The translations under genes and the position numbers were made by a program. Shown piece after piece: positions 40,401 through 54,617 of a stretch of 58,585 nucleotides of DNA (positions are counted from its first letter, which is position 1; every line of letters starts with the position of its first letter). Source of the stretch: an uncultured archaeon. GTDB lineage: Archaea; Halobacteriota; Methanosarcinia; Methanosarcinales; Methanoperedenaceae. Under the pieces are notes generated by a model. That model searched no databases. It worked only from the letters and a program-made list of their open reading frames with translations, and had not been told where the DNA came from. Where the stretch lies: assembly GCA_902386205.1 (NCBI GenBank), contig CABMIH010000056.1, positions 1 through 58,585 of the forward strand, read 5' to 3'.

Positions 40401-41896
40401 ACGATTTTGTCGGCCATATTGAGGTTTGTGGTTACGTCCAACCATACATTATTGTTCAGGCTGTACAGGCGGACATTGCTCTCATTAAATCCAGGTCGGT
40501 TCAGTGTATAATTCAGGGAAATTGTTACATTACCTGTGAAATTTGCCGATGTTGTTATGTCCACGTAGTTCCCGATAGGCTCAAAACCAGGGGCCAATGG
40601 GGACGTTTGCATAAACGATACCAGTGTGTTCCCTTCTTCTGTAACTTTGCTAAAGGTAACAGCGACTCCGGAGGGCAATCCGGCCGGTGTGACGTCATTC
40701 CCTTTGGGAGTATTCAATGTGGTACTTGTATTTGTGGGCCAGGGCTGCATTGCATTAATATCCGAAGTATCAAAAGCAATCACAGTAATGCTATGAGATG
40801 TGCCCAAATCAAATCCCGATGCACTGTAATTATTTGATGTTTTTGGAAGATTTTTTTGAAACTTACCATCTATTGAAATCCTGGTTCCATTAAAATCTCC
40901 ATCAGTGGGATTTTTCCATGTCCAGTTTATGTAGGTTTGGCCTCTGTCTGCAACTGTTAAATCAGTAACATTCCCTGGAGGTTTTTCCACATTCCATGTC
41001 CAATTTTTTGAATCAGTACCGTATGTATTGTTGGCAACCGCTGTCACGGTCCGTACCCCTGGGGCCACGCTCGTGTTGGAGTATCTTGCGGTCGTCACGT
41101 TCTTTTCAGTATCCTGAACTACCGTACCATTGATCAGCCATGTTACATCTACAGACTGGTTTATGCCTATACTGAAAATCTGAGCTATTCCTGTTCCTGT
41201 TGTAACAGGTGATGCTGGTGTGGCGCCGGTGATATTGGGCGCTCCTACCTTCTCTGGTGTCACAATCCATGTCCATATCTGCGGGAGAGCAGCACCGTTA
41301 GCATTACTTGCAACTGCTTTCACATTCCATGTTCCAGCCGCACTGGTGTTAGAATAGCTTGCGGTCGTCACGTTCTTTTCAGTATCCTGGACAACCGTAT
41401 CATTGATCAGCCATGTCACATTCACGCTCTGATTTACATTGATGCTAAAGCTACTCAAATCACCCACAAAATTATTGACAACAGACTCTTTTGGGCTGAA
41501 GCTGGTTATCTTCGGTGCACCAGTTGGGGCGGGAGTTGGTGTCGGTGTTGAAGTCGCCGTGACTGTAGGTGTTACATTGGCTGTTGAAGTCACTGTGACT
41601 GTAGGTGTTGCATTGGCTGTTGAAGTCACCGTAGCTGTCGGTGTTGCATTGGCTGTTGAAGTGACCGTAGCTGTGGGTGTTGGGCTGGTTGTTGATGTTG
41701 CTGTGTCTGTTGGTGTTGGTTTTGTTGTTGATGTCACCGTGGCTGTTGGTGTTGCGTTGGTTGTTGCTGCGGATGCTGTCACTACGGCTTTGAGATCATT
41801 GAAATCAGTCTGAACTATGAGTCCGGCAGTAGCATATGCCACACCTAAAAGCATCAATAAGGAAATGATTCTCTTAACATTCCTTTTAATGATCAT
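37406..41896 (-). CDS. Giant S-layer protein with two tandem DUF1608 domains
   Basis: A 1,496-residue surface protein. In order it has a signal helix (1-25), a Thr/Pro-rich stalk of six 12-residue repeats, two Ig-like repeats, a fibronectin-like domain and a domain near 400-530. Two tandem S-layer domains (about 603-900 and 900-1185) follow, with FGYSGFGSFEVIGFMAEKYFAGYT-type cores, quoted in parts as FGYSGFGS and EKYFAGY. Then come two Ig-like repeats, a CARDB-like domain, a membrane helix (near 1445-1467) and a basic tail. The tandem DUF1608 pair is the lattice-forming unit of Methanosarcina S-layers. The start at 41896 has GGAG six bases upstream. Confidence 0.88.
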   Translation of the reverse strand: MIIKRNVKRIISLLMLLGVAYATAGLIVQTDFNDLKAVVTASAATTNATPTATVTSTTKPTPTDTATSTTSPTPTATVTSTANATPTATVTSTANATPTVTVTSTANVTPTVTATSTPTPTPAPTGAPKITSFSPKESVVNNFVGDLSSFSINVNQSVNVTWLINDTVVQDTEKNVTTASYSNTSAAGTWNVKAVASNANGAALPQIWTWIVTPEKVGAPNITGATPASPVTTGTGIAQIFSIGINQSVDVTWLINGTVVQDTEKNVTTARYSNTSVAPGVRTVTAVANNTYGTDSKNWTWNVEKPPGNVTDLTVADRGQTYINWTWKNPTDGDFNGTRISIDGKFQKNLPKTSNNYSASGFDLGTSHSITVIAFDTSDINAMQPWPTNTSTTLNTPKGNDVTPAGLPSGVAVTFSKVTEEGNTLVSFMQTSPLAPGFEPIGNYVDITTSANFTGNVTISLNYTLNRPGFNESNVRLYSLNNNVWLDVTTNLNMADKIVTGKVTNLSLFAAGVYPPPAIRVIQEPPTLEITVRDTLFFDISVDQAANVTWAVNDISEGPELVPAEGNSNFTFNSTAKGNYSLSVEANNTNGTSTMLWNITVHPRTFFKGNRIWDGSKPDEFSLTYTWDPMSFSGFYYDINDDVGDESITMTLDSYSDRTINKGKLVYTTTPQEVSFGYSGFGSFEVIGFMAEKYFAGYTASSNPPSPTTSIGAKSVLSQGQLHRVLIDDDTRRTISLGGTLTLQEGYVLKAKDIDPGARTMLISLLKDGNEVDSTPLSAGQTYVYTKKVGAVSDLPILMVRFDSVFSGVEVQSGFLRGVFQISENYDTVNSGNDFGIMEVRSVSDTKIEMSNNADISLGAGSTDDLMGDVKIIVADNSSVVRFALSVEKTGSFEVRSSVYREDDPIDEWTPYNFGMNIGKTSLGFYYDLDEGIGNERLKLAAPLDGGRTIKDGNLLYTTAPQEVDFGYSGFGSYEVIGFMADKYFAGYTANSNPPNPTASIVAKSVLAQGQLHKVLIDDDTRRTISLGGTLTLQEGYVLKAIDIDMNARTMLISLLKDGNEVDSTPLSAGQTYVYTKKVGAVSDLPILMVRFDSVFSGVEVQAAFLRGVFQISENYAAVNSGNSFGMMKVGSVTGDEIEMSNDGSISLENGNIEELMGNVKLKVGDTTDNSLRFYFAVDVTPEMVANQLVIDAPAQATAGDTIAIKVTAGGDPVDGASLAINSSGIGQTGGVGILNYTLPRNLKGIYNMTATKLGYQDAIKSMEVLEYIERRLSMEAPTTANQFETITIRVTSNGTAIGGATVAYDNTTVGSTDANGTLHYTLNASGTHSISALKNGYITVAKEIDVRAPYSEYKALDINITPDVVLTDEEAAIKSNVTNAGTKKDTLPVELIINGTAVDNRSVTLAPGEIKEVNFTRKESKTGNYTVEILGQKELLEVKEKPFTWSLILIVIIVTGLGAIAVYLLTAKNKISFEVIRKKLKLGIIWTGRWIDGFK
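38561..39700 (-). repeat. Near-identical DNA repeats encoding the two S-layer domains
   Basis: Bases from about 38,561 to 38,830 and from about 39,431 to 39,700 (spacing 870) are nearly identical. They include long shared runs such as GAGAATACGCTGTCAAACCT and TACCTCGTTCCCATCTTTTA. The flanking parts of the two domains are more diverged. This suggests recent exchange between the copies or strong selection. Confidence 0.75.
41540..41770 (-). repeat. 36-bp tandem repeats encoding the Thr/Pro stalk
   Basis: Six imperfect 36-base units, each coding for a 12-residue TPTATVTSTANA-like element. This is a protein stalk likely to be glycosylated and variable in copy number between strains. Confidence 0.8.
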
Positions 41897-41981
41897 ATTT
41901 CTCCGCAACATATTTTAGCTATCTTCAACCCCGAATTGTTTCGTTCGGCACTTTCTATCTATTAATTATGTCATCAACAGA

Positions 41982-43235
41982 TTATTGTTCAAACCGCAAA
42001 GCATCCACCGGATTCATTTTGGCTGCCGTCCGTGCTGGCACGACGCCTGAGATTATTCCCACGAATACGGAAAATACAAGTGCAAAGATAAGAAGTTGCG
42101 GCGTGACAACCGCGTTCATTTCCCCGCCGGGCCCTATAGCCCGCAGGCCCACTGCGGATATCAGGACTGATACAAGTATACCAAAAATTATCCCAAGCAC
42201 TCCTCCCACAAACCCGAATAACCCGGATTCCATAAGGAAAAGTTTCATCACTTCGTTATCCGTAGCTCCAAGAGCTTTGAGTAATCCTATCTGCCTCGTT
42301 CGTTCCATGACAGACATGAACATTGTATTAGCTATGCCCACGGCGCCAACAAGAAGCGAGACTGCTGCTATAGCAGCCAGGAAAAGCGAAATGGTCTGGA
42401 CAACGCCTGTTATCTGCTGCTGTATTACTGCGAATTCAGTGACCGTAAAATCCCTGGTTCTTGGATTGACATGCCTGGCAGGCATAAGTTTTGTCACAAT
42501 ATCTGAAGCCACCTGGTTTGCCAGCTCAGGGTTCGCTACCTTTACCATGATCGAAGTAAATGTGTTCCTGGGTACATTTGACGTTATCACATCCCGTGCA
42601 TAATCTGCCGGCATGAATACCGCATTATCACCGCCTCCTCCTCCAAAACCGCCTCCTGATTGCACGAAGATTCCCACGACCTTGAAAGTCTTGTTCCCGA
42701 TCGTAATTGGTCTGTTCAGGGTTATCGGCTGCAAAAAAGTCTCATGAGCTAAGGAATATCCGATGACCACAGCATTGGAATCACCCGATTGAAGGTATCT
42801 GCCAGATTCAAGTTGAGTTGTGACCATGGACCGCCAGACTACAGGATCAATGCCGCTTATGGATACCGAAGTCTTTTCTGTACCAAGTATCATATCCGAT
42901 CTTCCAGAAACCATGCCGTTCACATAGAGCACTCCAGGTACCTGTTTGATCACGTTCAGGTCCTTGTCAGTGAGGTTGATACTGGCACTGCCTGCCGACC
43001 CCCCACCAAAGCCGCCGCCACCGCTTGCCCGTGAAAAACCCGGCGTGACTGTTATCAGGTCTGCACCGAGACTTCCAAGGCGTGACTGCACGCTTTCCTG
43101 CATCCCCTGTCCTATGGAAATTATAGCTACAACTGCAGCCACTCCAATTACGATACCAATGATGGTGAGCCAGCTTCTCATCTTGCTTTTCTTGACATGG
43201 CTCAGGGATAACCTGAAGATATCAAAAGCCTTCAT
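41982..43235 (-). CDS. MacB-type ABC permease (module copy 1)
   Basis: A 417-residue permease with one N-terminal helix (SWLTIIGIVIGVAAVVAII), a large extracytoplasmic domain (about 50-280) rich in Gly, and three C-terminal helices. It carries MERTRQIGLLKALGAT, the MacB/FtsX mechanotransmission signature. It works with the ATPase at 44491 and the secreted adapter at 43286, which are adjacent on the same strand. MacB proteins move substrate outside the membrane rather than across it. A paralogue is at 49104. Confidence 0.9.
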   Translation of the reverse strand: MKAFDIFRLSLSHVKKSKMRSWLTIIGIVIGVAAVVAIISIGQGMQESVQSRLGSLGADLITVTPGFSRASGGGGFGGGSAGSASINLTDKDLNVIKQVPGVLYVNGMVSGRSDMILGTEKTSVSISGIDPVVWRSMVTTQLESGRYLQSGDSNAVVIGYSLAHETFLQPITLNRPITIGNKTFKVVGIFVQSGGGFGGGGGDNAVFMPADYARDVITSNVPRNTFTSIMVKVANPELANQVASDIVTKLMPARHVNPRTRDFTVTEFAVIQQQITGVVQTISLFLAAIAAVSLLVGAVGIANTMFMSVMERTRQIGLLKALGATDNEVMKLFLMESGLFGFVGGVLGIIFGILVSVLISAVGLRAIGPGGEMNAVVTPQLLIFALVFSVFVGIISGVVPARTAAKMNPVDALRFEQ

Positions 43236-43285
43236 ATATCAGTCCCATAGTCCCCATTTTTAAATACATGATCTCAATACGGTTT

Positions 43286-44494
43286 TTACCCCCCTTTTCG
43301 TTTCTGGAAATAGGTAGTTATTTTCTTTCGCTGCCAGTATATCACGAGTATAACAGCGATCGCAAGAATCCAGATAGTATAATTCGTGCTGCCTCCTCCT
43401 CTCCCTGCTCCTGCCTGCGCTCCTGTCGATGATAAAGTCACGACGAGAGATTTTGTAATCTTGTTTCTCATTCCACTGGTGTCGGTATATTGTATCTCCA
43501 CATCAAGGTCATTGCCGCCGCCAGGTATTTTTGCAATCTGGAATATTGCGGATGTATAATCGCCCGCGTTTAAATTCCCGAGCACGGAAGAACTGCTCCC
43601 GGTAGATGAGAAATTCTTCTGGCGTGGAATACTGACCGTCACGGCGCTGGCCGGATTTACCCCGACATTTGCAACATTTAGCGAAAAAGAGCCCAGAGTC
43701 TCCTGATAGCTTATCTCAAAATCAGTTGTTCCTGCTACAACCAGTCCTACGTAATTCGCAGATGAATAATTGTTCTGGCCTGTAATTTTCAAAGGCAGAT
43801 TGTATACACCGGGGCGGGCTGCGATGTCTACAGCTAGATCAAACGTGATATCGGCTTCATCGCCTGATTTCAGATTGCCGAGGGAAAATTGAGTCCCTCC
43901 GCCCAGGATCGAAAACACCGAATTCACATTCGTATCAGCGAGGTTTATTTCAGCTATCGCGTTCTGTACAGTGCCTGTGCCTGTATTTTTAAATTTCAGC
44001 GTTTCCTTGTTAATGCTCATCGGTGCAACGATACCAAGACTTGAATTGAGTAGCACTATAATGGGCTTGCCTTTGATAGTCAATATCTGGTCTTTGAGTT
44101 CGGTAGTTACCGGGGTTGGCGGAGTGCTGCTACTTATTTCTTGACCAGTATAGGTGATATATACATTGAAATAATAATCACCTTCTACTGCATCAGGATT
44201 TACATGGATCCTGAATTTTGCGGTTCTCTGATCGCCCCAGTCGTTTATAGTTCCAAGTGAATCAACATCATTAAGGATTGTCACGGCCTTGGCTGAAGCA
44301 TTATCTTTAGGTTCAAGTCGGACTGACACATCATTCATGAATATGCCAAATCCCATATTCTGTATCGGTACATAGACATAAACCGTATCTCCTGGATATA
44401 CCGGCGCGCTTTCGGTCACAAGATAATCAGATGCTGCAACCTGCGCCAGCAGCAACGCCAATACGACTGCAAAAATCACATTTAGTCGCTTCAT
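43286..44494 (-). CDS. Secreted CARDB/NEW3-like exporter adapter (module copy 1)
   Basis: A 402-residue protein with a signal peptide, three or four repeated CARDB/COG1361-like beta domains and a C-terminal membrane helix followed by RKK. Repeat examples are YLVTESAPVYPGDTVYVYVP, LKFKNTGTGTVQNAIAEI and SLNVANVGVNPASAVTVSIP. Located between the ATPase and permease genes, it is likely the extracellular partner of the exporter, taking the place of MacA. Its ATG overlaps the ATPase stop (ATGA). A diverged paralogue is at 50355. Confidence 0.8.
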   Translation of the reverse strand: MKRLNVIFAVVLALLLAQVAASDYLVTESAPVYPGDTVYVYVPIQNMGFGIFMNDVSVRLEPKDNASAKAVTILNDVDSLGTINDWGDQRTAKFRIHVNPDAVEGDYYFNVYITYTGQEISSSTPPTPVTTELKDQILTIKGKPIIVLLNSSLGIVAPMSINKETLKFKNTGTGTVQNAIAEINLADTNVNSVFSILGGGTQFSLGNLKSGDEADITFDLAVDIAARPGVYNLPLKITGQNNYSSANYVGLVVAGTTDFEISYQETLGSFSLNVANVGVNPASAVTVSIPRQKNFSSTGSSSSVLGNLNAGDYTSAIFQIAKIPGGGNDLDVEIQYTDTSGMRNKITKSLVVTLSSTGAQAGAGRGGGSTNYTIWILAIAVILVIYWQRKKITTYFQKRKGG

Positions 44495-45168
44495 GTTTCA
44501 CCTACTATTTTTCCATCAAGCATTTTCACAACTCTACCTGCATATCCTGCAATTTTCTGGTCATGCGTTATCATGACGATGGTCAATCCCTCACTGTTCA
44601 AATGTTTAAAAACATCCATTACTTCGCCTCCTGATTTTGTGTCCAGGTTCCCTGTCGGCTCATCTGCAAGGAGAATAGAAGGGCCGGTGGATAGCGCCCT
44701 GGCTACCGCCACTCTCTGCTGCTGCCCCCCTGATAACTGGGCCGGGAAATGAGCCCCCCGTTCAGCCAGCCCGACAGTAGCCAGAAGTTTTTTTGAGGTA
44801 TCTTCTACCTCTTTTTCAGGGATTTCATGGATTCTCATCGGCAGCTGGATATTCTCAAGAGCTGTCAGGGTAGGATACAGGTTAAAAGTCTGGAATATGA
44901 CCCCGATCTTTTTACCTCTTATGCGCGCCAGTTCATTACTTTTGAATTCCGATATATCTTTACCTTCAAGCAAAACCTTTCCCCGGGTGGGCATGTCAAG
45001 ACAGCCTATCATATTTAACATTGTTGATTTTCCGCATCCACTGGGTCCTGTTATGGCTACGAACTCATTTGCCCTGATTTTCAGGTCTATTCCTGAAAGT
45101 GCAGGTACATCAAACTCACCCATTCGATAAACTTTCCAGACATCCTGAAGCTCCATTATCGTTTCCAT
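44491..45168 (-). CDS. MacB/LolD-type ABC ATPase (module copy 1)
   Basis: A 225-residue ATPase with Walker A GPSGCGKSTMLNMIG, signature [15 protein letters not shown], Walker B ILLADEPTGNLD and switch ITHDQKIA. It is the canonical LolD/MacB type. Its first 20 residues are almost the same as those of the ATPase at 51719 (METIMEL-DVWK-YRMGE). It energises the permease at 41982. It follows the Lon-like gene by 82 bases on the same strand and may share its regulated promoter at 46187. Confidence 0.92.
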   Translation of the reverse strand: METIMELQDVWKVYRMGEFDVPALSGIDLKIRANEFVAITGPSGCGKSTMLNMIGCLDMPTRGKVLLEGKDISEFKSNELARIRGKKIGVIFQTFNLYPTLTALENIQLPMRIHEIPEKEVEDTSKKLLATVGLAERGAHFPAQLSGGQQQRVAVARALSTGPSILLADEPTGNLDTKSGGEVMDVFKHLNSEGLTIVMITHDQKIAGYAGRVVKMLDGKIVGET

Positions 45169-45250: not shown

Positions 45251-46162
45251 TTAAGTGGCATACTTCAAGACTTCATCGATATTGTCAACATATTCGATTT
45301 TTATACCTACATTTGTCTCTACATACTGCCTGGCATCAAATGTTTCCGGCACCTGCTGTATTATAGTCATACCGGCTATATTTCTCCTGGTCTCGTTGTA
45401 CTGCACAAGTTCACTATTCTCTTTAGGCAGAAGAAACAGGGTCTTCCCGCCCTCCTTTGCGGCCTTTGCTTTTTCTATGACCCCTCCGATTGCGCCCACG
45501 TGACCGTACTGGTCTACTGTGCCTGTCAATGTCACATCATTTTTTATTTCCTTCTTTTCAAGTGCTGATATTACAAGTAAGGTCATCAGTGCTCCGGCAC
45601 TCGGGCCATCTACCGAAGGCATCTCCTTCTCAGACTCTATACTGAAAATCACATCGCTGCCTGAAAGTTGCATTCCGGTCTTATTCTGGGCCACATAGAC
45701 AGCCGTGTTTGCAGCATCCTGGAACACCGTACCCATGAGCGGCCTGGTCTGTACAAGTACCCTGCCCTCTCCCGGCCTTATCTCAGCAGATATATTAATC
45801 AGGGAACCTTCTTCAACGGCCTGCTGCCTCACAAATGGATAATCCTGAATATATTCAATTTTCTGCATGACAGCAGGTGCCTGGAGTGCTGCGAATCCCT
45901 GAATATTTGTTGGAGTACTGTTCAGATTGCTCTCAAGATATGCTACCCTTTGCCTGTAGACTTCAAGCTGGGAGATGTAGTTTCGTTCAGAAATATTATC
46001 CTGATTCACCTGCTTACTCAGATCCGCATTCGCTTTTTCAAGATAATTTGTTCTGTTCTCAAGTTCCTGAAGATCCTTTTGCGTGGGCTGGGCTATGAAA
46101 AAGAGGTAAATGTTACCTAAGATCGATATTATGAGTAAAACTGCCAGGACCTTACTTTTCAT
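45251..46162 (-). CDS. Membrane-anchored Lon-like (S16) serine protease, short form
   Basis: A 303-residue protein. A helix (5-23) is followed by a coiled coil (about 28-80), then a Lon proteolytic domain facing outside. The catalytic Ser is near residue 188 (VDGPSAGALMT) and the Lys near 231 (GAIGGVIEKAKAAKEGGK). There is no ATPase domain, so it is an ATP-independent, extracytoplasmic S16 protease. It stands directly before the ABC exporter operon. Its promoter carries the 30-bp element shared with two other operons. A longer relative is at 54664. Confidence 0.88.
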   Translation of the reverse strand: MKSKVLAVLLIISILGNIYLFFIAQPTQKDLQELENRTNYLEKANADLSKQVNQDNISERNYISQLEVYRQRVAYLESNLNSTPTNIQGFAALQAPAVMQKIEYIQDYPFVRQQAVEEGSLINISAEIRPGEGRVLVQTRPLMGTVFQDAANTAVYVAQNKTGMQLSGSDVIFSIESEKEMPSVDGPSAGALMTLLVISALEKKEIKNDVTLTGTVDQYGHVGAIGGVIEKAKAAKEGGKTLFLLPKENSELVQYNETRRNIAGMTIIQQVPETFDARQYVETNVGIKIEYVDNIDEVLKYAT

Positions 46163-46186
46163 AACAAACCTCTTACATCAATCCTG

Positions 46187-46216
46187 ATTGAACGATATTT
46201 AATCCCTATGCAGAAC
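46187..46216 (-). promoter_or_regulatory. Shared 30-bp promoter element, copy 1
   Basis: Begins ATTGAACGATA and ends ATGCAGAAC on the + strand, and lies 25 bases before the Lon-like ATG. A TATA-like CATATAAAGC is just upstream in the transcription sense (about 46230-46241). The same 30-mer, with few changes, precedes the genes at 47704 and 53638. Confidence 0.7.
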
Positions 46217-46233
46217 TCCGATAGAATTAAGCT

Positions 46234-46294
46234 TTATATGGGTTCTTTTTTCGATGAGAACCATTCTGAAAGTTCAATAAGGTTCATTCTTTCG
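46234..46294 (-). pseudogene. Relic of the 3' end of the membrane HTH regulator gene
   Basis: The minus-strand frame reads ERMNLIELSEWFSSKKEPI then stop. It matches the last residues of the regulator at 53712 (GRTNIIELSEWFLSEKELK, stop). Upstream the frame is closed and the rest of the gene is gone. It lies directly between the G1 peptidase stop and the shared promoter element. This is the same position the intact regulator occupies at the third site. Confidence 0.75.
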
Positions 46295-46295
46295 T

Positions 46296-47183
46296 TTAGG
46301 TTATTCTATAATTTTCCGGAAGCTTATTGAAGCCGCTGCTAAATCTTCCTCTGCCTTGCCTGTGGAAAGGCTGGTGACCATGGATACCTGTTACGGCTCT
46401 GCGCCAGCCGGCTTGTGATGACGTTGAATCGGTGCGACTGACGGTGAAACTTGCTCCATCGCTTCCCAGGGCTGAAGGTTGGGCTAAGGCCTGACCAAGA
46501 TAATTATCCATTACTATGGTGTGCGCATTGGCCTGGGCCGGTGTTAGTGCTTTGCCGTCTTTGACCGTAGATAAGGCGCTGAATTGTACGGAGCCGAAAT
46601 TATCAAGCGGAATGAAAGATCTGCCGAGAACCGGCATTTCCTCTATCCATTCTGCAGAGGATAAAGAAGAGGCGTAGGTAACGGTAGTCTGGTAATTCTG
46701 GCCCGTTGTATCGTCACGCAGAGATATTGTCCATTGGTTTGTCGACTGCTGGACGATTGAAGCAGTGATAGAATCACCCGGGTTGATCGAAAGCGGAATT
46801 TTACGGGAGTTTCCCGGCAGCATCTCATACCAGGCCTGGTAACTGATCCGGCCGTTATTATTAACGATAGCCTGCGTTCCGGTCTGGATCAAATCGTTAT
46901 GTGTCGTTCCGCCAATGCCAACCCATGTGGCATCAGCAGATGTTTGTGTCGCATTTACCTCTGGGACGATCCATGATCCGGTGACAGAAGTGAAGGAACC
47001 ACCTGTAGCGACATACCCTGCCCAGTTGTTAGACACATTCGTAACTCTATCGACATCAGGGAGCCGGGCGGTCACCTGATGCGCCGTTATTTGCGCCAGA
47101 GCCGGCGTTACCTGCACCAATAGACCGAAGAAGGCAATCACGAGGATTTTGTGGAATAATTTTTGCATATATGTGTTTTTCAT
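46296..47183 (-). CDS. Secreted G1 (eqolisin) glutamic peptidase
   Basis: A 295-residue secreted protein with signal peptide 1-30. It matches family G1: NNWAGYVATGGSFTSVTGSW, ATWVGIGG, LIQTGTQ with the catalytic Gln near residue 100, YQAWYEMLPG, AEWIEEMP with the catalytic Glu near 178, and the closing LGSDGASFTV. Family members are acid-active endopeptidases best known from fungi. The last ~45 residues (basic, His-rich) have no family match and may be extra coding sequence gained by rearrangement at the regulator relic. The ATG overlaps the HILDV gene stop (ATGA), so both are co-translated. Confidence 0.85.
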   Translation of the reverse strand: MKNTYMQKLFHKILVIAFFGLLVQVTPALAQITAHQVTARLPDVDRVTNVSNNWAGYVATGGSFTSVTGSWIVPEVNATQTSADATWVGIGGTTHNDLIQTGTQAIVNNNGRISYQAWYEMLPGNSRKIPLSINPGDSITASIVQQSTNQWTISLRDDTTGQNYQTTVTYASSLSSAEWIEEMPVLGRSFIPLDNFGSVQFSALSTVKDGKALTPAQANAHTIVMDNYLGQALAQPSALGSDGASFTVSRTDSTSSQAGWRRAVTGIHGHQPFHRQGRGRFSSGFNKLPENYRIT

Positions 47184-47704
47184 CCCTTAGAGTTGTGCGA
47201 TTTGAAGGTTCCCTTGAAGTCGTGCTGTCCTGAAGACGACAGCAGCACATTGTAATCCGTATTATTCATTGTTAGAGTACCCTTTGAGAGCAATACCCCT
47301 TCATATTTTGATATTGACAACGACATGTGTCCTACTGTTGCCGGTGTGAAGCCTGTCCGGTTCGTCCCGCGCGGAGGCAGTGTCAGCACATCTCCATTAA
47401 GAGACTGGTTGTCGTAGCCTGTTACTTTAAGAGCATATGCCTGGCCTGCAAATCTGAGATGCCCCGCAGTTGCCATCTGGCTGTTATTTCGTTTCTCATT
47501 TACGACCGCAACGTCCAGTATATGATATTCATCCCCATTCAGTGCAAATCCCTGCCCTACAAGTAAAGATCTGGAATCCAGTTTTGCATGTTCCCTTTCT
47601 TTACCGATGCCCATAGGATAGGCAAACACTGTTACTGCCATTACTGCTGAAACCAGCAAGACTGCAGCAAATAATATTGTTGTTGTTTTTTTCGTTATTT
47701 TCAT
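47180..47704 (-). CDS. Secreted HILDV protein, paralogue 1, unknown function
   Basis: A 174-residue secreted protein with signal peptide 1-27. The core is LLVGQGFALNGDEYHILDVAV, then HLRFAGQAYALKVTGYDNQS, DVLTLPPRG and MSLSISKYEGVLLSKGTL. A clear paralogue of similar length is at 53066. I recognise no family. AGGTGAAC lies just before the ATG. The shared promoter element is 30-60 bases upstream. In both loci it is the first gene after that element, followed here by the G1 peptidase and there by a cytochrome. It may be a folding, inhibitory or binding partner of the downstream protein. Confidence 0.7.
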   Translation of the reverse strand: MKITKKTTTILFAAVLLVSAVMAVTVFAYPMGIGKEREHAKLDSRSLLVGQGFALNGDEYHILDVAVVNEKRNNSQMATAGHLRFAGQAYALKVTGYDNQSLNGDVLTLPPRGTNRTGFTPATVGHMSLSISKYEGVLLSKGTLTMNNTDYNVLLSSSGQHDFKGTFKSHNSKG

Positions 47705-47731
47705 TTTTGTTCACCTTAAATTCCCCCTCGT

Positions 47732-47761
47732 ATTGAACGATATTTAAGTTCGATGCTGAAC
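47732..47761 (-). promoter_or_regulatory. Shared 30-bp promoter element, copy 2
   Basis: Begins ATTGAACGATA and ends ATGCTGAAC on the + strand, between the HILDV ATG (47704) and an AT-rich TATA-like region (about 47765-47780). It differs from copies 1 and 3 at only a few positions. Confidence 0.7.
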
Positions 47762-47781
47762 ATTGATACGAAATAAGCTTT

Positions 47782-47841
47782 CTATGTCTTATTTTTCTGA
47801 TAAAAACATTCAGAGCGTTCGATAACGTTCGGCCTCGTATA
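47782..47841 (-). pseudogene. Second relic of the HTH regulator 3' end
   Basis: The minus-strand frame YTRPNVIERSECFYQKNKT then stop corresponds to the regulator end GRTNIIELSEWFLSEKELK. It is more decayed than the relic at 46234 but is in the same place relative to the promoter element. The rest of 47,842-47,918 shows no gene. Confidence 0.65.
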
Positions 47842-47918
47842 TTATCTTTTATTCTATGGCAAAAGGGTTGAAAATAACCCTGTATTCAGACAGGGAAAAT
47901 TTTTTCATTCTTTTTACA

Positions 47919-48437
47919 TTATTTATTGTGCTGCTTCAACAATACGTAGCCTGCCAATAATCCGATTATGAAAAACACCTGTTCGAATCCCGGAGTTGTT
48001 TGGGTTGCAGTAGGCATTGTGGTTGGCGGGACTTCTGTAGGTGTCTCAACTATAGTTGTTGGCATTTCCGTGGGTATCTCGGTCGCGATTGGTGTTGGAG
48101 TCACGGCAGGTGTTGGAGTCACCATTGTTGTTGCTGTGGGAGTCACCATTGTTGTTACTGTGGGAGTCACCGGTGTTGTTGCTGCTGTGGTGGGCCCAAT
48201 ATTGGATATGGCCGAAGCCGGGTCGGTGGCGTGATCAGGCTGGGCCTGAAATTGCTTCCCATAAGAATTAAGCGATCCCCCGCCTGCTGGATTAACATGA
48301 CAGACGTCGCAGGTAGTATTCGTGTTAAAAGTTGTATTGTACGCATCCAGATATGCCGGAAGTGATGTAGTCTGCTGCACACCTGCAACTGCTATCACTG
48401 ATAACAGGAATAGAACGAACAATAATTTCCCTTTCAT
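47919..48437 (-). CDS. Secreted monoheme c-type cytochrome with PGF-CTERM-like anchor (copy 1)
   Basis: A 172-residue protein. It has a signal peptide (1-20) and one heme-attachment motif CDVCH (residues 43-47) inside NTTCDVCHVNPAGGGSLNSYG. A long Thr/Pro/Val stalk follows, then a C-terminal TPGFEQVFFIIGLLAGYVLL plus basic end, matching the PGF-CTERM archaeosortase pattern. It is predicted to be exported, loaded with heme outside, and attached to the membrane lipid or S-layer. A shorter relative is at 52581. It could carry electrons across the envelope, which is inference from a single heme. Confidence 0.8.
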   Translation of the reverse strand: MKGKLLFVLFLLSVIAVAGVQQTTSLPAYLDAYNTTFNTNTTCDVCHVNPAGGGSLNSYGKQFQAQPDHATDPASAISNIGPTTAATTPVTPTVTTMVTPTATTMVTPTPAVTPTPIATEIPTEMPTTIVETPTEVPPTTMPTATQTTPGFEQVFFIIGLLAGYVLLKQHNK

Positions 48438-48552
48438 AAATTTTCATCCCATTTATATCTTCTAAAACCATATGTTGCTCATTTCTGAGCTTATACGCAC
48501 CTGAAACACTCCTTATAAAGGGAATGGCGTTTTTCATTGATAAATTTTGCGG

Positions 48553-49068
48553 TTAGTGGCCGGAGGATTTCCCTTTAAAATAAAACCATACAAATGTAAA
48601 TACAGCCATTAATATGATAAAACCTGCCACAATTGCATAACTCTTTTCATCCAGGGTTATAGAGAACTTCTCACTATTGAGCGGATAGAATAGCATGATT
48701 CCATCGGCTGCAGTATATCTCATTATATTATCCTCGACATGTTGAGCCACGCTTTCATTCGATACGACCTGATTTGTCAGAATTTGAATTGTATGATGTG
48801 AGTTATCGAATAGAAATATGTCCAGTGCAGAATGCGACCAGAAGCCTATTAATAGCGGAGCGAAAAAAGCGCGATTTCGAATCACAAACAATATCGCCAA
48901 TACAAGCAGGACCAGCGGCGAATGTAATCCGCTGCGATGATGCCAGAATATGTCCAGATCAGGAAATAAACTGGCAATCGCTACAAGTGCCATCTTTTTC
49001 CTATTTGCATCTTTCAATAAAATTGCACCAAGTACAAAACTAAATAGTAAATGCGAGATCCAGTCCAT
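48553..49068 (-). CDS. YdjM-like membrane-bound hydrolase
   Basis: A 171-residue protein with four membrane helices. Features are an early WISHLLFSFVLGAI His, LFPDLDIFWHHRSGLHSP, SHSALDIF and MLFYPLNSEKF, the YdjM/DUF457 order of His and Asp motifs. It lies between the two copies of the exporter module, close to the cytochrome. Its function is unknown. It is distant from the family member at 301. Confidence 0.8.
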   Translation of the reverse strand: MDWISHLLFSFVLGAILLKDANRKKMALVAIASLFPDLDIFWHHRSGLHSPLVLLVLAILFVIRNRAFFAPLLIGFWSHSALDIFLFDNSHHTIQILTNQVVSNESVAQHVEDNIMRYTAADGIMLFYPLNSEKFSITLDEKSYAIVAGFIILMAVFTFVWFYFKGKSSGH

Positions 49069-49103
49069 ATTTTATAATATACAGTCACAGCTTTAGCAGG
49101 AGT

Positions 49104-50339
49104 TCACTCATATCTCAACGCATCAACAGGCTTCAATTTTGATGCCTGGTACGCGGGAATTATTCCTGCAAGTATCCCCACTGTAACAGATACAGACAAT
49201 GCCATAAATATTGAGTTCAGTGTAACTATTGCAGTACCTCTTGCCATAGGAAGACCCCCCATTAGCGCAGGCATGAAGCCAGAAAGAAGTGTTCCGAGCA
49301 TTATGCCTATTATCCCTCCGACGAGCCCGATAAATGCCGCATTGAACAAGAATATCAGCAAAATATCATGATTTCGCGCGCCGATAGCTTTCATTATTCC
49401 AATTTCTTTAGTTTTTTCAAGGACTGAAGTGAACATGGTATTTGCTATCCCGATAGAACCTACGATCAGTGAAACCGCTGCAATTGCAAGAAGGAATGTA
49501 TTCATCGAATTCATAGTATCTGCTCTTGCCTGCTGCATTTCCTTCCTTGAAGAGACTGAAAAATCCTTGCTTTTTGTAGTGACGTGTCTTGCAGTCATAA
49601 GTTTGTTCTCGATTTTAGTGATCACTTCATCCAATTGATTTTCATCCCTGATCTTCACTACAAGTGTATAATAAATATCGTTCGTCTTGTCCGGGATCAT
49701 CTGGTATGCCATTTGAATAGGCATGTAAACGCTGTTGCTCTGGTCATCAAGAATTCCCACGACCCGGAAGGCGCTGCCGTTTATCGTTATCATCTTATTT
49801 ATCCCGACAGGCTGGTCAAAATAAGAGGATGCAAGCCTTCCTCCGATAACTATTACATTCTGATCGGCGGAATCAAGCATCCGGCCTGTTTTTATTTTAC
49901 TTGTTGTAATCTGGGACCAGACTCCCTGGTCAACGCCTGTTACGGAGACTTTTCCTGTTTTGCCAAGATAGGATATATCCACGCTCCCCCTGATATTAGT
50001 GTCGATGAGCGCAATATCAGGAAGTCCCTTCAATGCCTGAAGATCGCTCCTGCCCAGTACTATTTCTTTGGTCGTTGCCTGGGGTCCGGAAGAACCTCCG
50101 CCACCGCCTCTCATACCAAACATCCCCCCACCCCGTTCAAAGCCCGGAGAAATTGTAACAATATCTCCGCCAAGTGCGTTCAACTGCGCATTGAGCGATT
50201 GCTGCATACCGTCCCCTATTGAGACGATAGCGATCACCGCTGCAACGCCGATAACAATTCCTGTTATAGTAAGCCAGCTCCGGAGCTTGCTGTGCAGTAC
50301 CATATTGAACGCATGCTTGAAACATTTGTTAAGTTTCAT
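49104..50339 (-). CDS. MacB-type ABC permease (module copy 2)
   Basis: A 411-residue permease with the same plan as the one at 41982. It has an N-terminal helix (LRSWLTITGIVIGVAAVIAIV), a Gly-rich extracellular domain with MFGMRGGGGGSSG, and three C-terminal helices with LEKTKEIGIMKAIGAR. It is the last gene of copy 2, after ATPase and adapter. The two permeases are clearly homologous but diverged across the extracellular domain, so they probably handle different substrates. Confidence 0.9.
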   Translation of the reverse strand: MKLNKCFKHAFNMVLHSKLRSWLTITGIVIGVAAVIAIVSIGDGMQQSLNAQLNALGGDIVTISPGFERGGGMFGMRGGGGGSSGPQATTKEIVLGRSDLQALKGLPDIALIDTNIRGSVDISYLGKTGKVSVTGVDQGVWSQITTSKIKTGRMLDSADQNVIVIGGRLASSYFDQPVGINKMITINGSAFRVVGILDDQSNSVYMPIQMAYQMIPDKTNDIYYTLVVKIRDENQLDEVITKIENKLMTARHVTTKSKDFSVSSRKEMQQARADTMNSMNTFLLAIAAVSLIVGSIGIANTMFTSVLEKTKEIGIMKAIGARNHDILLIFLFNAAFIGLVGGIIGIMLGTLLSGFMPALMGGLPMARGTAIVTLNSIFMALSVSVTVGILAGIIPAYQASKLKPVDALRYE

Positions 50340-50354
50340 TTTAACCTGCAGGCA

Positions 50355-51722
50355 TCATTTATTCCTGCTTTTGAATAGGTCAATTATTTTAAAATCCGGA
50401 TCAAGCAATTTGCGGCTCCTGTATTTTCTATGGCCTACAACTATTCCCACAAGCACTGCTATTCCGATAAAATACAATGCGTAATTGGAAAAGATACTTT
50501 CCTGCTGAACCCCCCCTCTTCGTCCCTGAAAAGCTGTTTGCCCGTCCGCGGATCCCATATTTTGAATTCCGAGTTTGACCTGTTTTTCAACAACTGATCT
50601 TTCTCCCCTGGTATCGGTGTAAGCTATTTGCATGAGCAATGTATCGGATGAGCTATTTCTTTGCATAGACCTTCCCTGGAAGTTGGTATTGTTTCTGCCG
50701 GCTCTATTCTGGGATGTCATATTATTTATTGAGGACTGTAATTTGAAGCTTGCAACAGTGTAGTCCCCTTTGTTCAGATTGCCTATGATAACAGAATTCG
50801 AGCCGCTTACACTCCAGCCTGGCTGATCGGGAATAACCACTGATACCGAGTTTGCAGGATTGCTTCCAATATTGGCAACGCTGAAAGACATCTGGCCATT
50901 TGCATTATCCGAGAATGCAACATCGAAATCCGTTCCTCCGCCAACATACACTCCGGCAAACGTGTTTATTGTTTTCGTTTTATTTGAAGTCGAGTCTTCA
51001 TAAGTCAGGTGCAGGTTCAGTTTGTATAATCCCGGTACTGCATTAGTATCTGCCATCACCTGGTATTCCAGGTCAGTGCCATTACCAATATCAATGTACT
51101 TGATATATTTGGTATTGTCACTCCCGACTGGAAGAATTACCTTCTCATCATTATCCCAGTTGAACGTCAAATCTCTCAATGGGGCATTCCCGACGTTATT
51201 GATTGTGAATTTTAAGCTGCTTTGCTTTCCCGGAACAAGCATCGTCTGGTCAATGTGGATCACCTCAGCACTTTCCTTGCTCTTCACATCAAGGTACAGG
51301 CTTTTCTGGACCACATCAGTTGAACCCTGCTCATAATACTTGACTTTGAGTTCATAACTTCCTGCCGGAGCATCCTTGTTTATTTGCATCGTGTACTTTA
51401 CGACTTTTATATTTTGAGTAGAATCTGCCTGATACTCTTGAACTATTCCTACATCCTGGATGGCGTTTTCACCGGGTACAAGCTCAAAAGGATACCCTGG
51501 TACAACTTCTAGCATAAGATCGTTAGTAGTCGTGCCGCCGATATTCTGGATGCCTATACGTACATCCACGGTATTTCCTGCAATTGCAGGATTAGGGTCA
51601 TAATTTGCAAGGCTTATTGATAGAACTGTTGAGCCTGCTAAACCCGCATTGACCGCAGGGATGTAAGTCATTAAAACCAGGATTGCTAAAATTTGTAACA
51701 TTGTATTTTTCATTTCTTTCAT
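50355..51722 (-). CDS. Secreted CARDB/NEW3-like exporter adapter (module copy 2)
   Basis: A 455-residue protein with a signal peptide (about 1-26), CARDB-like domains and a C-terminal helix with a basic end. Domain examples are ISLANYDPNPAIAGNTVDVR, LKFTINNVGNAPLRDLTF and MSFSVANIGSNPANSVSVVI. It overlaps the ATPase stop (ATGA). It is the paralogue of 43286 and is placed identically. An Asn/Gln/Arg-rich insert near residue 340-365 is specific to this copy. Confidence 0.8.
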   Translation of the reverse strand: MKEMKNTMLQILAILVLMTYIPAVNAGLAGSTVLSISLANYDPNPAIAGNTVDVRIGIQNIGGTTTNDLMLEVVPGYPFELVPGENAIQDVGIVQEYQADSTQNIKVVKYTMQINKDAPAGSYELKVKYYEQGSTDVVQKSLYLDVKSKESAEVIHIDQTMLVPGKQSSLKFTINNVGNAPLRDLTFNWDNDEKVILPVGSDNTKYIKYIDIGNGTDLEYQVMADTNAVPGLYKLNLHLTYEDSTSNKTKTINTFAGVYVGGGTDFDVAFSDNANGQMSFSVANIGSNPANSVSVVIPDQPGWSVSGSNSVIIGNLNKGDYTVASFKLQSSINNMTSQNRAGRNNTNFQGRSMQRNSSSDTLLMQIAYTDTRGERSVVEKQVKLGIQNMGSADGQTAFQGRRGGVQQESIFSNYALYFIGIAVLVGIVVGHRKYRSRKLLDPDFKIIDLFKSRNK

Positions 51723-52423
51723 TCTCCTATTCCCCGAATTTTAGATATTTTCAAAATTTCCCCATCTTTCAGTTCAATTGTCGTGCTGGCATATTTGGCC
51801 AGGTTAAGGTCGTGAGTGACCATGATTATAGTTTTTCCATGCTTTTTCCACAAACTGTGAAGCATCTCCAGAACTTCCCTGCCTGTAACACTGTCAAGGG
51901 CCCCCGTCGGCTCGTCCGCAAGGATTATCTCGGGGTCACTCACCAGGCTTCTTGCAATGGATACTCTCTGCTGCTGGCCTCCGGAAAGCTGTGTTGGGCG
52001 ATGGTGCATCTTGTCGCTCAATCCTACGAGTGCCAATATTTCTCTTGTCCTGTTTGCCGCTTTTCTGTCTTCATATTCCAAAAATTCCAGTGGAAGCATC
52101 ACGTTCTCAAAAGCAGACATCGATTGGATCAGGTTATATTGCTGGAAGATAAAACCGATAGTCTTCCCTCTTAATGATGCCAGGTCTGATTCGCCTAATC
52201 TGCTGATGTCCTGCGATTTGAGGTATAAGCTTCCCCTGGAAGGGATGTCCAGGCATCCTATAAGGTTCATCATTGTCGATTTGCCGCTTCCCGAAGCGCC
52301 TATGATAGCGACAAAGTCCCCTTTCTTTATTTTTACGCTTACTCCCCTCAGTGCTGGCACCTCCACTTCGCCCATCCTGTAGATTTTCCAGACATCCTTC
52401 AATTCCATTATGGTTTCCATCAT
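51719..52423 (-). CDS. MacB/LolD-type ABC ATPase (module copy 2)
   Basis: A 234-residue ATPase with Walker [16 protein letters not shown], signature [15 protein letters not shown], Walker [13 protein letters not shown] and switch VTHDLNLA. It forms an exporter with the downstream adapter and permease. Its ATG overlaps the stop codon of the deleted cytochrome copy (52420-52531), showing that a cytochrome gene once ran directly into it. Transcription probably starts at the shared promoter before 53638. Confidence 0.92.
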
Positions 52424-52531
52424 TTGTTACGCCGCCTGGCCATGAGAGCCCATGAAAATAATCCGGCCATTGAGACCTGCAAGAATTGCTGATAATACCA
52501 AAAGTAAGATAACCACTGGTTTCCCATTCAT
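52420..52531 (-). pseudogene. Internally deleted copy of the PGF-CTERM cytochrome gene
   Basis: The first ~20 codons (MNGKPVVILLLVLSAILAG, after GGAGAT) match the signal peptide of the cytochrome at 52581 (MNGKTFVVLILAISVILAG). In the next frame the remaining DNA encodes [17 protein letters not shown] then stop. This matches that protein's anchor tail SLIGLFAWALLAKRHNK. The heme-binding part is missing and the two ends are out of frame. Its upstream DNA repeats the cytochrome promoter-proximal sequence. This is a deletion remnant of a tandem duplicate. Confidence 0.8.
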
Positions 52532-52580
52532 ATATCGTATCTCCTTCTTTTTGTTTCTTAATTGGAAAAACAAAGCCAGA

Positions 52581-52982
52581 TCATTTATTATGCCTCTTTG
52601 CCAGGAGTGCCCATGCAAATAATCCTATCAAGGAGATAGCGAATCCAAATCCGGGAGACGCTTGAGGTTCTGTTGACGTCGATATGGAAACTGGATTAAG
52701 GGATGGGGTCGCCGTTGTTGTAGATGGTGGCCCTATAGCCATCAGGGCGGCGCTGGCATTGGCATCGTAATCAGGCTGTTTCTCAAATAGCATTCCATAG
52801 GAGTTGAGCGGTCCGCCGCCTGAAGTCTTATAATGGCAGGTACCACATGAACCATCACCATACACAGTGTTAAGACTTGCAAGATATTGGGGGTATGCAA
52901 AGGAACCGGGCGCTCCTGCAAGAATTACTGATATGGCCAAAATTAATACAACAAATGTCTTCCCATTCATATATCGCATCAT
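52581..52982 (-). CDS. Secreted monoheme c-type cytochrome with PGF-CTERM-like anchor (copy 2)
   Basis: A 133-residue protein. It has a signal peptide, one CGTCH heme motif (residues 46-50) in the context DGSCGTCHYKTSGGGPLNSYG, a short Ser/Thr/Pro stalk and the anchor SPGFGFAISLIGLFAWALLA with KRHNK, a PGF-CTERM-type signal. It shares the heme-site surroundings and anchor with the 48437 protein but has a much shorter stalk. AAGGAGAG precedes the ATG. It lies between the HILDV paralogue and the ABC ATPase and is probably co-transcribed with both. Confidence 0.82.
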   Translation of the reverse strand: MMRYMNGKTFVVLILAISVILAGAPGSFAYPQYLASLNTVYGDGSCGTCHYKTSGGGPLNSYGMLFEKQPDYDANASAALMAIGPPSTTTATPSLNPVSISTSTEPQASPGFGFAISLIGLFAWALLAKRHNK

Positions 52983-53065: not shown

Positions 53066-53638
53066 CTACCATCTTCCAAGTCTCGCCGGGGATGTCATCA
53101 ACACTTTGTAATCAGTCCCGTTCATGTTCAGGGTACCAGTTGATATCATTTCGCCTTCATATTTCGATATTGACAGGGAGACATTTCCCACTGAAGCCGG
53201 AGTGAAGCTCGTCTGGTCCGCACCATGAGGGGGTACTGTCAGAACATCCCCTGCAAGAGACTGATTGTCATAGCTTGTTATGTTGAGAGCATATGCCTGG
53301 CCTGCGAACCGCAGATGTGCTCTCATCCTTGTTGATGTTTGCGCATCATTTATTTCTTTTGCTATTTCTTCAGGGCTTTTTTTCTGCATAAGCAGGGAGC
53401 GGATAAGAGCCGGTGACGCATCGCTTGTTTTTATTGCAGTCACATCCAGGATGTGATACTCATCTCCTTTCATCGCGAAACCATGTCCCAGGAGTAAAGG
53501 CTCAACGAAATATCTTGCAAACCCTCTTTCTTTACCAAAACCCGGACCTGAGGGCTGGGCGAAAACAGTTACTGCCGTTGGTGCCAAAATCATCATAATA
53601 GCAGCAAACATTATTATTGCTTTTATTCTTATTTTCAT
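53066..53638 (-). CDS. Secreted HILDV protein, paralogue 2, unknown function
   Basis: A 190-residue secreted protein. The core LLLGHGFAMKGDEYHILDVT, HLRFAGQAYALNITSYDNQS, DVLTVPPHGADQ and VSLSISKYEGEMISTGTLNM aligns along the whole length with the 47704 protein. It differs in a charged insert of about 25 residues (LIRSLLMQKKSPEEIAKEIN). AGGTGA precedes the ATG. The shared 30-bp element is just upstream, and beyond it the intact HTH regulator gene. The conserved pairing with this promoter suggests a central role in the system. Confidence 0.72.
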   Translation of the reverse strand: MKIRIKAIIMFAAIMMILAPTAVTVFAQPSGPGFGKERGFARYFVEPLLLGHGFAMKGDEYHILDVTAIKTSDASPALIRSLLMQKKSPEEIAKEINDAQTSTRMRAHLRFAGQAYALNITSYDNQSLAGDVLTVPPHGADQTSFTPASVGNVSLSISKYEGEMISTGTLNMNGTDYKVLMTSPARLGRW

Positions 53639-53664
53639 TTAATTCACCTTGCATGCCTGTTAGG

Positions 53665-53694
53665 ATTGAACGATACATAATTTCGATGCAGAAC
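53665..53694 (-). promoter_or_regulatory. Shared 30-bp promoter element, copy 3
   Basis: Begins ATTGAACGATA and ends ATGCAGAAC on the + strand. A TATA-like GTTTATTTAA (53701-53710) lies directly upstream in the sense of transcription, so the element covers the expected start site. The regulator gene ends two bases beyond the TATA. Confidence 0.75.
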
Positions 53695-53711
53695 TTAAAA
53701 TTAAATAAACT

Positions 53712-54617
53712 TTATTTGAGTTCTTTTTCTGATAAAAACCATTCTGAAAGTTCGATTATATTTGTTCTTCCTTTTTCAACCTTTTTTATTATATTTTTCC
53801 TCTTTAGGGCGTTTATTATGCCAGTAAGGGAAGATTTCGGTATCCCGGTTTCGTACCGGATGTCAGCCTGTGTTGAAGAACCACCATTTTTTATAATTAT
53901 ACCTATTATCGTCTTCTCTTTTTCTGAGAGAGTATCTATGACCTTTTGCATCTCTCCTGTGATTTGGATCTCGTTAGTTCCAGGTGTAGTCTTTGACACA
54001 TTGCCCACAATTTCATTCGTTTCAGGAGTGACTGCCGGTTTCAGATTTCTATGTCTATAATATGCGAAAGTAACTCCTACAATCAATACAATTGTCAACA
54101 ATATTGGAAGCATTGAAAGGCCGTCTGCCTGGCCCGGCACACCCGCAGGCAGTTTGTAGTCCAATTTTATCCAGGGTGATACTACCCTGTATCCCTGTAT
54201 TGATAAAGTAAGCGAGTCCTCCTTGACCTGTACCTGGTAATTGAGTTCATGCTGTGTTTCAAATTTTGTGATCTCAGAGCCGGGTGGAAGAAAAAATGTT
54301 ACAGAATAGTCAGAATAATACCCATCTAGAGATAAGTTAAGCGACCACGTATCTCCACTCTTTGATGTCAGCATATCTGTAACAGCGTAAAGCTGGTTGG
54401 TATTGTTATCAAAAGTGTATTTTATCCCGTCCAGGAAAGGCATGTAAGAAAGAGATTCCGGTGAGGCATAGCCTGTTATGAGCACTTTCCCGGAAGGATC
54501 TACATACCCGTTAAGCGATATCTGCCCCTCGCTTATGGTCTCCTGCCCATGCGCCGGGGTTAGTAGTATTACCAGCAGGAATAAGAATATCCGATAATCA
54601 GCCATTGTATATAACAT
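53712..54617 (-). CDS. Membrane-anchored helix-turn-helix regulator with an extracellular sensor domain
   Basis: A 301-residue protein. It has a signal/anchor helix, an extracytoplasmic beta domain (about 28-165, e.g. ISLNGYVDPSGKVLITGYAS), a membrane helix near 170-190 and a cytoplasmic winged HTH at about 230-295 (SEKEKTIIGIIIKNGGSSTQ, GIPKSSLTGIINALKRKNII). This topology is known in archaeal membrane-bound regulators that sense the envelope. Its gene ends immediately before the shared promoter element. Truncated 3' ends of related genes are found before the other two copies. It is therefore the best candidate to control all three operons. Start codon: ATG 54617 or 54605. Confidence 0.8.
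   Translation of the reverse strand: MLYTMADYRIFLFLLVILLTPAHGQETISEGQISLNGYVDPSGKVLITGYASPESLSYMPFLDGIKYTFDNNTNQLYAVTDMLTSKSGDTWSLNLSLDGYYSDYSVTFFLPPGSEITKFETQHELNYQVQVKEDSLTLSIQGYRVVSPWIKLDYKLPAGVPGQADGLSMLPILLTIVLIVGVTFAYYRHRNLKPAVTPETNEIVGNVSKTTPGTNEIQITGEMQKVIDTLSEKEKTIIGIIIKNGGSSTQADIRYETGIPKSSLTGIINALKRKNIIKKVEKGRTNIIELSEWFLSEKELK

Follow-up and report, generated by a model that had tools for sequence, protein, structure and literature searches.

How did a glutamic (G1) peptidase come to lie among export genes of an anaerobic methanotrophic archaeon, and what might it do there? The gene was found in a window of 58,585 nucleotides, the whole stretch of DNA analysed here (contig CABMIH010000056.1 of assembly GCA_902386205.1), from an uncultured member of the Methanoperedenaceae. 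A preliminary description had placed it in a redox/export locus, coupled to a small protein termed HILDV, and had treated G1 peptidases as chiefly fungal. The reading that we favour, with a probability of roughly 0.6, is that of a laterally acquired surface endopeptidase of Patescibacteria origin that was recruited into the envelope-response regulon of a HILDV/MacB island (features in Table 1).

By class, the window gene is an ordinary and functional-looking member of the G1 family, while its history and placement are unusual. A Pfam profile search matched residues 52-241 to Peptidase_A4 (PF01828; E 8.4e-40, 136.9 bits, family cut-off 22.3), the single match in this 2.79 Mb genome, and phmmer retrieved aspergillopepsin II (1.2e-13) and scytalidopepsin B (1.4e-12) from the PDB. 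The AlphaFold2 model (14 sequences, mean pLDDT 74, beta core mostly confident, tail unstructured) has the two-sheet beta-sandwich of the G1 family, and its closest PDB entries are fungal G1 enzymes. A different fold, the outcome against which the early reading had been set, was not seen: the top matches were scytalidoglutamic peptidase (SGP; 2ifw, Foldseek E 1.5e-13) and aspergilloglutamic peptidase. The sequence contexts reported as catalytic, LIQTGT (Gln100) and SAEWIEE (Glu178), are both intact in the ORF, and this Gln/Glu dyad, given for G1 enzymes in PMC6154417, is conserved in 72/72 rows of our core alignment. The core is under purifying selection (dN/dS of about 0.15 against the orthologue of congener G015, and about 0.44 for the tail; Nei-Gojobori). 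By homology with SGP and in line with the literature on that enzyme, Glu178 would act as general base, activating the water that attacks the peptide bond, and Gln100 would stabilise the intermediate.

The G1 domain is preceded by 51 residues with a modelled hydrophobic helix at residues 5-23, and the product is probably secreted or surface-held; preprosegments of fungal G1 enzymes comprise about 55 residues according to PMC6154417. The ATGA overlap with the 174-aa HILDV ORF is present, but Met6 at 47168 may be the better start since a broken copy in genome G003 aligns from that residue, and the overlap thus need not mark the G1 start.

In the active-site region, Trp39 and Glu69 of SGP are retained, while Asp43, Asp57 and Asp65 of SGP, which lie close to its catalytic residues along the chain, are replaced by Gly, Gln and Gln. 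Activity in acid can therefore not be assumed, and the window enzyme may not need strong acid. In one half of the tree, Gly43 was found in all 24 Patescibacteria and CPR-like Methanoperedens rows and in 15/16 of the remaining rows; in the opposite half it was found in 10/32 rows. The fungal eqolisins of MEROPS family G1 (scytalidoglutamic and aspergilloglutamic peptidases) resemble the window protein in the predicted beta-sandwich, the dyad and the equivalents of Trp39 and Glu69, but they are only 24-29% identical to it, and the window protein lacks cysteine and carries an added basic tail. Prokaryotic members such as the Alicyclobacillus sp. DSM 15716 enzyme pepG1 and archaeal homologues from Acidilobus, Caldivirga and Picrophilus possess the dyad and, like the window protein, no conserved disulphide. 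However, as reported in PMC3009609, these originate from acidophiles or thermophiles, with a pH optimum of 3-4 for pepG1, whereas the host here belongs to a genus of anaerobic methanotrophs.

The notion of a chiefly fungal family did not withstand a survey of genomes: PF01828 was detected in 26/151 genomes of Chloroflexota, 12/379 of Patescibacteria and 8/100 of a third phylum, that of G111 (the positive centre genome counted in each case). Among 99 relatives it occurred in five, all within the genus (31 genomes) and one of them, G003, with only a broken fragment; of 294 genomes drawn from the phylum, the window's own was the only one with a G1 above the cut-off, and three weaker matches fell below it. 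G1 genes are therefore frequent in certain bacterial groups but scattered in this genus of archaea, and since archaeal members were already published in 2010 (PMC3009609), the bare occurrence of the gene in an archaeon is not new. A role of lateral transfer in the history of the family has likewise been proposed (PMC6154417), and six Methanoperedens MAGs were described from the Little Forest Legacy Site (PMC8561730). In the open-access literature we found no paper joining Methanoperedens with G1, or glutamic peptidases with Patescibacteria, and the main text of PMC7327174, which deals with lateral transfer in Methanoperedenaceae, contains no mention of peptidase, protease, CPR or Patescibacteria. 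What appears to be new is the standing of the gene as the sole above-cut-off G1 among those 294 genomes, its kinship with and probable transfer from Patescibacteria, the tail as a trait of a clade, and the gain of a HILDV-type upstream region and signal peptide in two congeners.

Two further G1 genes of Methanoperedens are of other origin, one in G023 (L090, 7564-8472; about 3 kb from another NEW3/MacB/ATPase set) and one in G005 (L088, 4955-5875). A G1 remnant in G028 (locus L024, to which the L142 stretch of the same genome is identical) may be an assembly artefact because its last 94 bases nearly repeat a stretch further upstream (3745-3838 and 4920-5013); this near-repeat at the contig end is likely an assembly join, and the locus was counted as a remnant only. 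L002 and L009 are one contig. Mobile carriers were rejected as a close source, with plasmid relatives (five records) all at about 31% identity and G1-like proteins of four viral contigs (L155-L158) at 30-34%.

A peptide scan with the window protein across one genome per species (84,980 species) returned 16 relatives, comprising 11 Patescibacteria, two of Methanoperedens type and, more weakly, one each from Chloroflexi, Acidobacteria and Kutzneria. The closest kin outside the genus are Patescibacteria with 46-53% identity (best five). In a 72-row tree, the window protein and that of G015 are sisters (100/99) within a set of seven Patescibacteria and three Methanoperedens rows (95/85), and the G023 row and the second G005 row (G005b) fall elsewhere. 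A single origin of all five Methanoperedens G1 rows was rejected (p-AU 0.0007), and one clade of the three CPR-like rows (window, G015 and G005a) was not rejected (p 0.75). With 37 rows, hand-picked from the 72 with the longest branches left out, the AU test rejected Patescibacteria without the three archaeal rows (p 0.018) and did not reject Patescibacteria together with them (p 0.35). A phylogeny including bacterial G1 proteins, as called for in the preliminary description, groups the three CPR-like archaeal rows with Patescibacteria, but the acidophile archaeal sequences are absent from it. In the 37-row tree most inner branches are weak and those of the Patescibacteria part are short, with the three archaeal rows lacking a firm place among them; the Chloroflexota rows, taken from among the matches listed and not from every match, form a clade within the same half. 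Twenty-two loci were omitted as duplicates, fragments or very divergent (L005, L007, L008, L009, L050, L051, L053-L062, L066, L068, L082, L122, L124 and L125), and rows with at most 60% of the core filled were set for removal. We regard acquisition of the window gene from Patescibacteria as most likely and statistically supported. Foreign base composition was discarded as a sign of transfer, as the gene ranks 11 of 54 ORFs in GC3 and is no outlier.

The Patescibacteria proteins (L010-L020) share Gly43 with the window protein and, in the nearest ones, the tail motif; they have their own signal peptides, and several terminate in a hydrophobic segment, missing from the archaeal tails, whose last residue is Arg or aromatic. 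No conserved operon is common to all 11 of these loci. A kinase-like neighbour, presumably a sensor kinase, recurs in five of them (L013-L016 and L019).

The C-terminal tail had been viewed as foreign to the family. It does lie outside the Pfam domain, but it is common to the nearest relatives and hence a trait of its own clade. Residues 268-295 have pLDDT values below 50, and the tail resembles that of G015 as well as those of Patescibacteria, where an RRGWxRTGxGxRG-like tail was found in the nearest G1 proteins. Outside the archaea, each of the three archaeal tails is matched best by Patescibacteria L010 or L012: the G005a tail FGRRGWQRTGIGIRG and the Doudnabacteria tail YGRRGWSRTGVGVRG align with a whole-tail score of 85 that none of 300 shuffles reached, and the best non-archaeal rows for the window tail are L012 (reached by 2/300 shuffles) and L010 (0/300). 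As tails were excluded from the tree, this evidence is independent of the core phylogeny. A frameshift behind the odd tail was rejected because neither of the other two frames holds a family-like continuation and because the tail can be aligned with those of G015 and Patescibacteria; only its terminal decapeptide, NKLPENYRIT, is without a clear counterpart in G015. With its net charge the basic tail could hold the enzyme to an acidic surface.

Table 1. Coordinates of the G1 gene, the surrounding island genes and the shared upstream regions in the window
Feature	Position	Strand	Basis
G1 (glutamic) peptidase gene, 295 aa	46296..47183	-	PF01828 match and predicted fold
G1 catalytic domain (residues 52-251), which includes Gln100 and Glu178	46431..47030	-	Pfam stretch 52-241, invariant columns
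Hydrophobic signal-peptide-like N-terminus, about residues 1-30	47094..47183	-	Alignments, model helix 5-23
Basic tail of 44 residues, rich in Arg/His/Gly, net charge +5, predicted disordered	46299..46430	-	pLDDT, charge
HILDV family protein copy 1 (HILDV1), small, probably secreted, 174 aa	47180..47704	-	13/31 genus genomes
HILDV family protein copy 2 (HILDV2)	53066..53638	-	
S16 (Lon C-terminal domain) protease, hydrophobic N-terminus	45251..46162	-	PF05362, E 2.4e-16
Exporter unit 2	41982..45168	-	ORFs, similarity to congener units
Unit 2 ATPase	44491..45168	-	
Unit 2 NEW3/CARDB-like protein	43286..44494	-	Weak CARDB/NEW3 matches
Unit 2 MacB-type permease	41982..43235	-	
CxxCH-motif protein copy 1	47919..48437	-	Sequence, synteny
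Unit 1	49104..52982	-	Pfam, synteny
Unit 1 CxxCH protein 2 with PGF-CTERM	52581..52982	-	
Unit 1 ATPase	51719..52423	-	
Unit 1 NEW3 protein	50355..51722	-	
Unit 1 MacB permease	49104..50339	-	
Winged-helix regulator, first island gene	53712..54617	-	PF24034, E 2.4e-14; same place in congeners
Shared upstream region copy 1, before HILDV1, G1 downstream in same direction	47696..47831	-	78% identical to G015 G1 module
Shared upstream region copy 2, from G1 stop codon, before S16-like gene	46189..46297	-	80% identity, query 41-150
Shared upstream region copy 3, before HILDV2, takes in regulator gene end	53630..53815	-	84% identity

Across the genus, the island follows the order regulator, HILDV, CxxCH protein, in some genomes an S16-like gene, ATPase, NEW3-like protein and MacB-type permease. 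In the window it consists of two tandem units, one running from 54617 to 49104 and the other from 48437 to 41982, and has a single regulator at the upstream end, and the G1 gene is placed in the second unit between HILDV1 and S16. Among the genus regions compared, a G1 gene inside the island was seen only in the window genome (G000) and in G015. The placement of a G1 peptidase beside HILDV in an archaeal export locus was borne out by the ORF, the PF01828 match and the nearby ABC exporter genes; the redox part of the original label, on the other hand, goes back only to single motifs of the two CxxCH proteins. The regulator has a C-terminal DUF7343/MarR-like domain and an N-terminal part with signal- or membrane-like stretches, and it looks membrane-bound from this hydrophobic part and by analogy with other regulators. 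A scan for bacterial sigma-70 promoters and terminators (46100-47900) gave numbers near the shuffled expectation. Following the exporter unit, a 1501-aa protein (37406-41911) carries S-layer domains in two stretches, besides a weak carboxypeptidase-regulatory/PEGA-like region.

Signs of recruitment lie upstream of the genes. About 200 nt upstream of HILDV genes are 73-92% identical to the upstream sequences of G1 genes in G015 and G005, and the same region, within this range of identity, precedes the window S16 gene and the L024 remnant. It comprises the last codons of the regulator, some 70-130 nt and then the start of a signal peptide. Genus-wide, 17 copies were counted in 12/31 genomes and assigned by their position: 12 at HILDV genes (two of them in the window, and a partial one in G011 about 460 nt off), three at G1 genes (G015, G005 and the G028 remnant), one at the window S16 gene and one at a contig end in G030. 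It is absent before the G1 genes of G005b and G023, and the genus-wide search found none at the G003 fragment. The regulator's last codons seem to be retained before G005a and in two window copies without a regulator gene, which suggests duplication of the region. Besides, the signal peptides of the G015 and G005 G1 proteins are HILDV-like, so that in these two genomes the G1 gene has gained both an upstream region and a signal peptide of HILDV type.

The window gene differs in this respect. Its product is 72% and 57% identical to the G1 proteins of G015 and G005a, with which it shares the core clade and the kind of tail, and its mature part is homologous to that of G015. However, the HILDV-type region and signal peptide are fused directly to those two genes, whereas no separate module stands immediately before the window gene, which begins with a different start in common with the G003 fragment (MxxLFxKIL) and whose stop codon directly abuts the copy that follows. 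Each of the three intact CPR-type G1 genes is nevertheless situated behind the module or within a gene run begun by it, and the window gene may be co-regulated with the island through this putative promoter module.

The sister genome G008, with flanks 86-89% identical in DNA to the window, retains the permease, NEW3, ATPase and S16 genes, but lacks most of 46169-52478 together with the regulator and the G1 gene, and its HILDV is a relic with stop codons. This joint absence of regulator, intact HILDV and G1 is one case and carries no statistic. Where the window has its G1 region, G008 encodes, on the opposite strand and flanked by its CxxCH and S16 genes, an M6 (immune inhibitor A) metallopeptidase (contig C30, L159 9425-11452; PF05547, E 6.9e-24), hinting at an exchangeable protease slot.

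Several other explanations deserve consideration. An ordinary secreted G1 peptidase that serves nutrition from extracellular protein, with an accidental position in the island, would agree with the secreted, degradative fungal members described in PMC3009609, with the CPR-type G1 gene of G005 lying outside the island and with the G1 genes that have no module; the association of every intact CPR-type gene with the module and the joint loss in G008 make it unlikely. Much less credit is due to HILDV as a dedicated partner of the peptidase, be it as chaperone, inhibitor or propeptide in trans. The two window genes adjoin and overlap, and both N-termini are signal-like, yet HILDV occurs in 13/31 genomes of the genus, mostly without G1, which is present in 5/31, and the G1 genes of G005 are unlinked to HILDV, so that HILDV is no obligate partner. 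HILDV matched no Pfam or NCBIfam family, and its low-confidence, all-beta model (mean pLDDT 60, three sequences) had no PDB match below E 0.05. The adjacency is still meaningful because the G1 genes of two other species have the HILDV-type upstream region.

Scarcely more probable is a catalytically weak or dead relative retained for binding. Gly at the position of Asp43 could be taken in its favour, given that the D43A variant of SGP keeps about 20% of its activity, but PMC6154417 judges Gly43 an acceptable substitution known from fungi, bacteria and archaea, and the conserved dyad and the purifying selection on the core argue against a dead enzyme. As to the direction of transfer, passage from archaea to Patescibacteria, or acquisition by both from Chloroflexota or an unsampled donor, could be accommodated by the weak 37-row tree with its Chloroflexota clade among Patescibacteria. 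It is nonetheless improbable considering that above-cut-off G1 was confined to the window's genome among the 294 drawn from the archaeal phylum, the thin spread of the gene over several Patescibacteria groups and the Arg/His-rich tails that match Patescibacteria best.

Under the favoured reading of a laterally acquired surface endopeptidase, a Methanoperedens ancestor would have gained the G1 gene together with its basic tail from a donor among the Patescibacteria that resembled Doudnabacteria; known parasites of methanogenic archaea belong to the Patescibacteria. The acquired gene would then have been recruited to the HILDV/MacB island headed by the winged-helix regulator, in the window as the gene that immediately follows HILDV1, with the same orientation, downstream of the HILDV1 copy of the region. 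The regulator might sense changes in the cell envelope and switch on export and surface proteolysis together, with the proteases (S16, G1 and in the sister species perhaps M6) clearing damaged or hostile proteins or peptides. A more detailed version is tentative: a G1 gene from Patescibacteria, fused in some species to an envelope-response promoter and signal peptide, occupying an interchangeable slot for G1, S16 or M6, and tuned off strong acid, the last because the active-site region has lost three acidic residues that the fungal enzyme possesses.

A G1 peptidase with Patescibacteria kin in an anaerobic methanotroph would represent a gift between domains that can still be traced, made by tiny bacteria that are probably host-bound to an archaeon of larger size, and the acquired upstream region and signal peptide make its recruitment visible at the level of bases. 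For the family, it raises the question whether a glutamic peptidase might work nearer neutral pH after the loss of the neighbouring aspartates.
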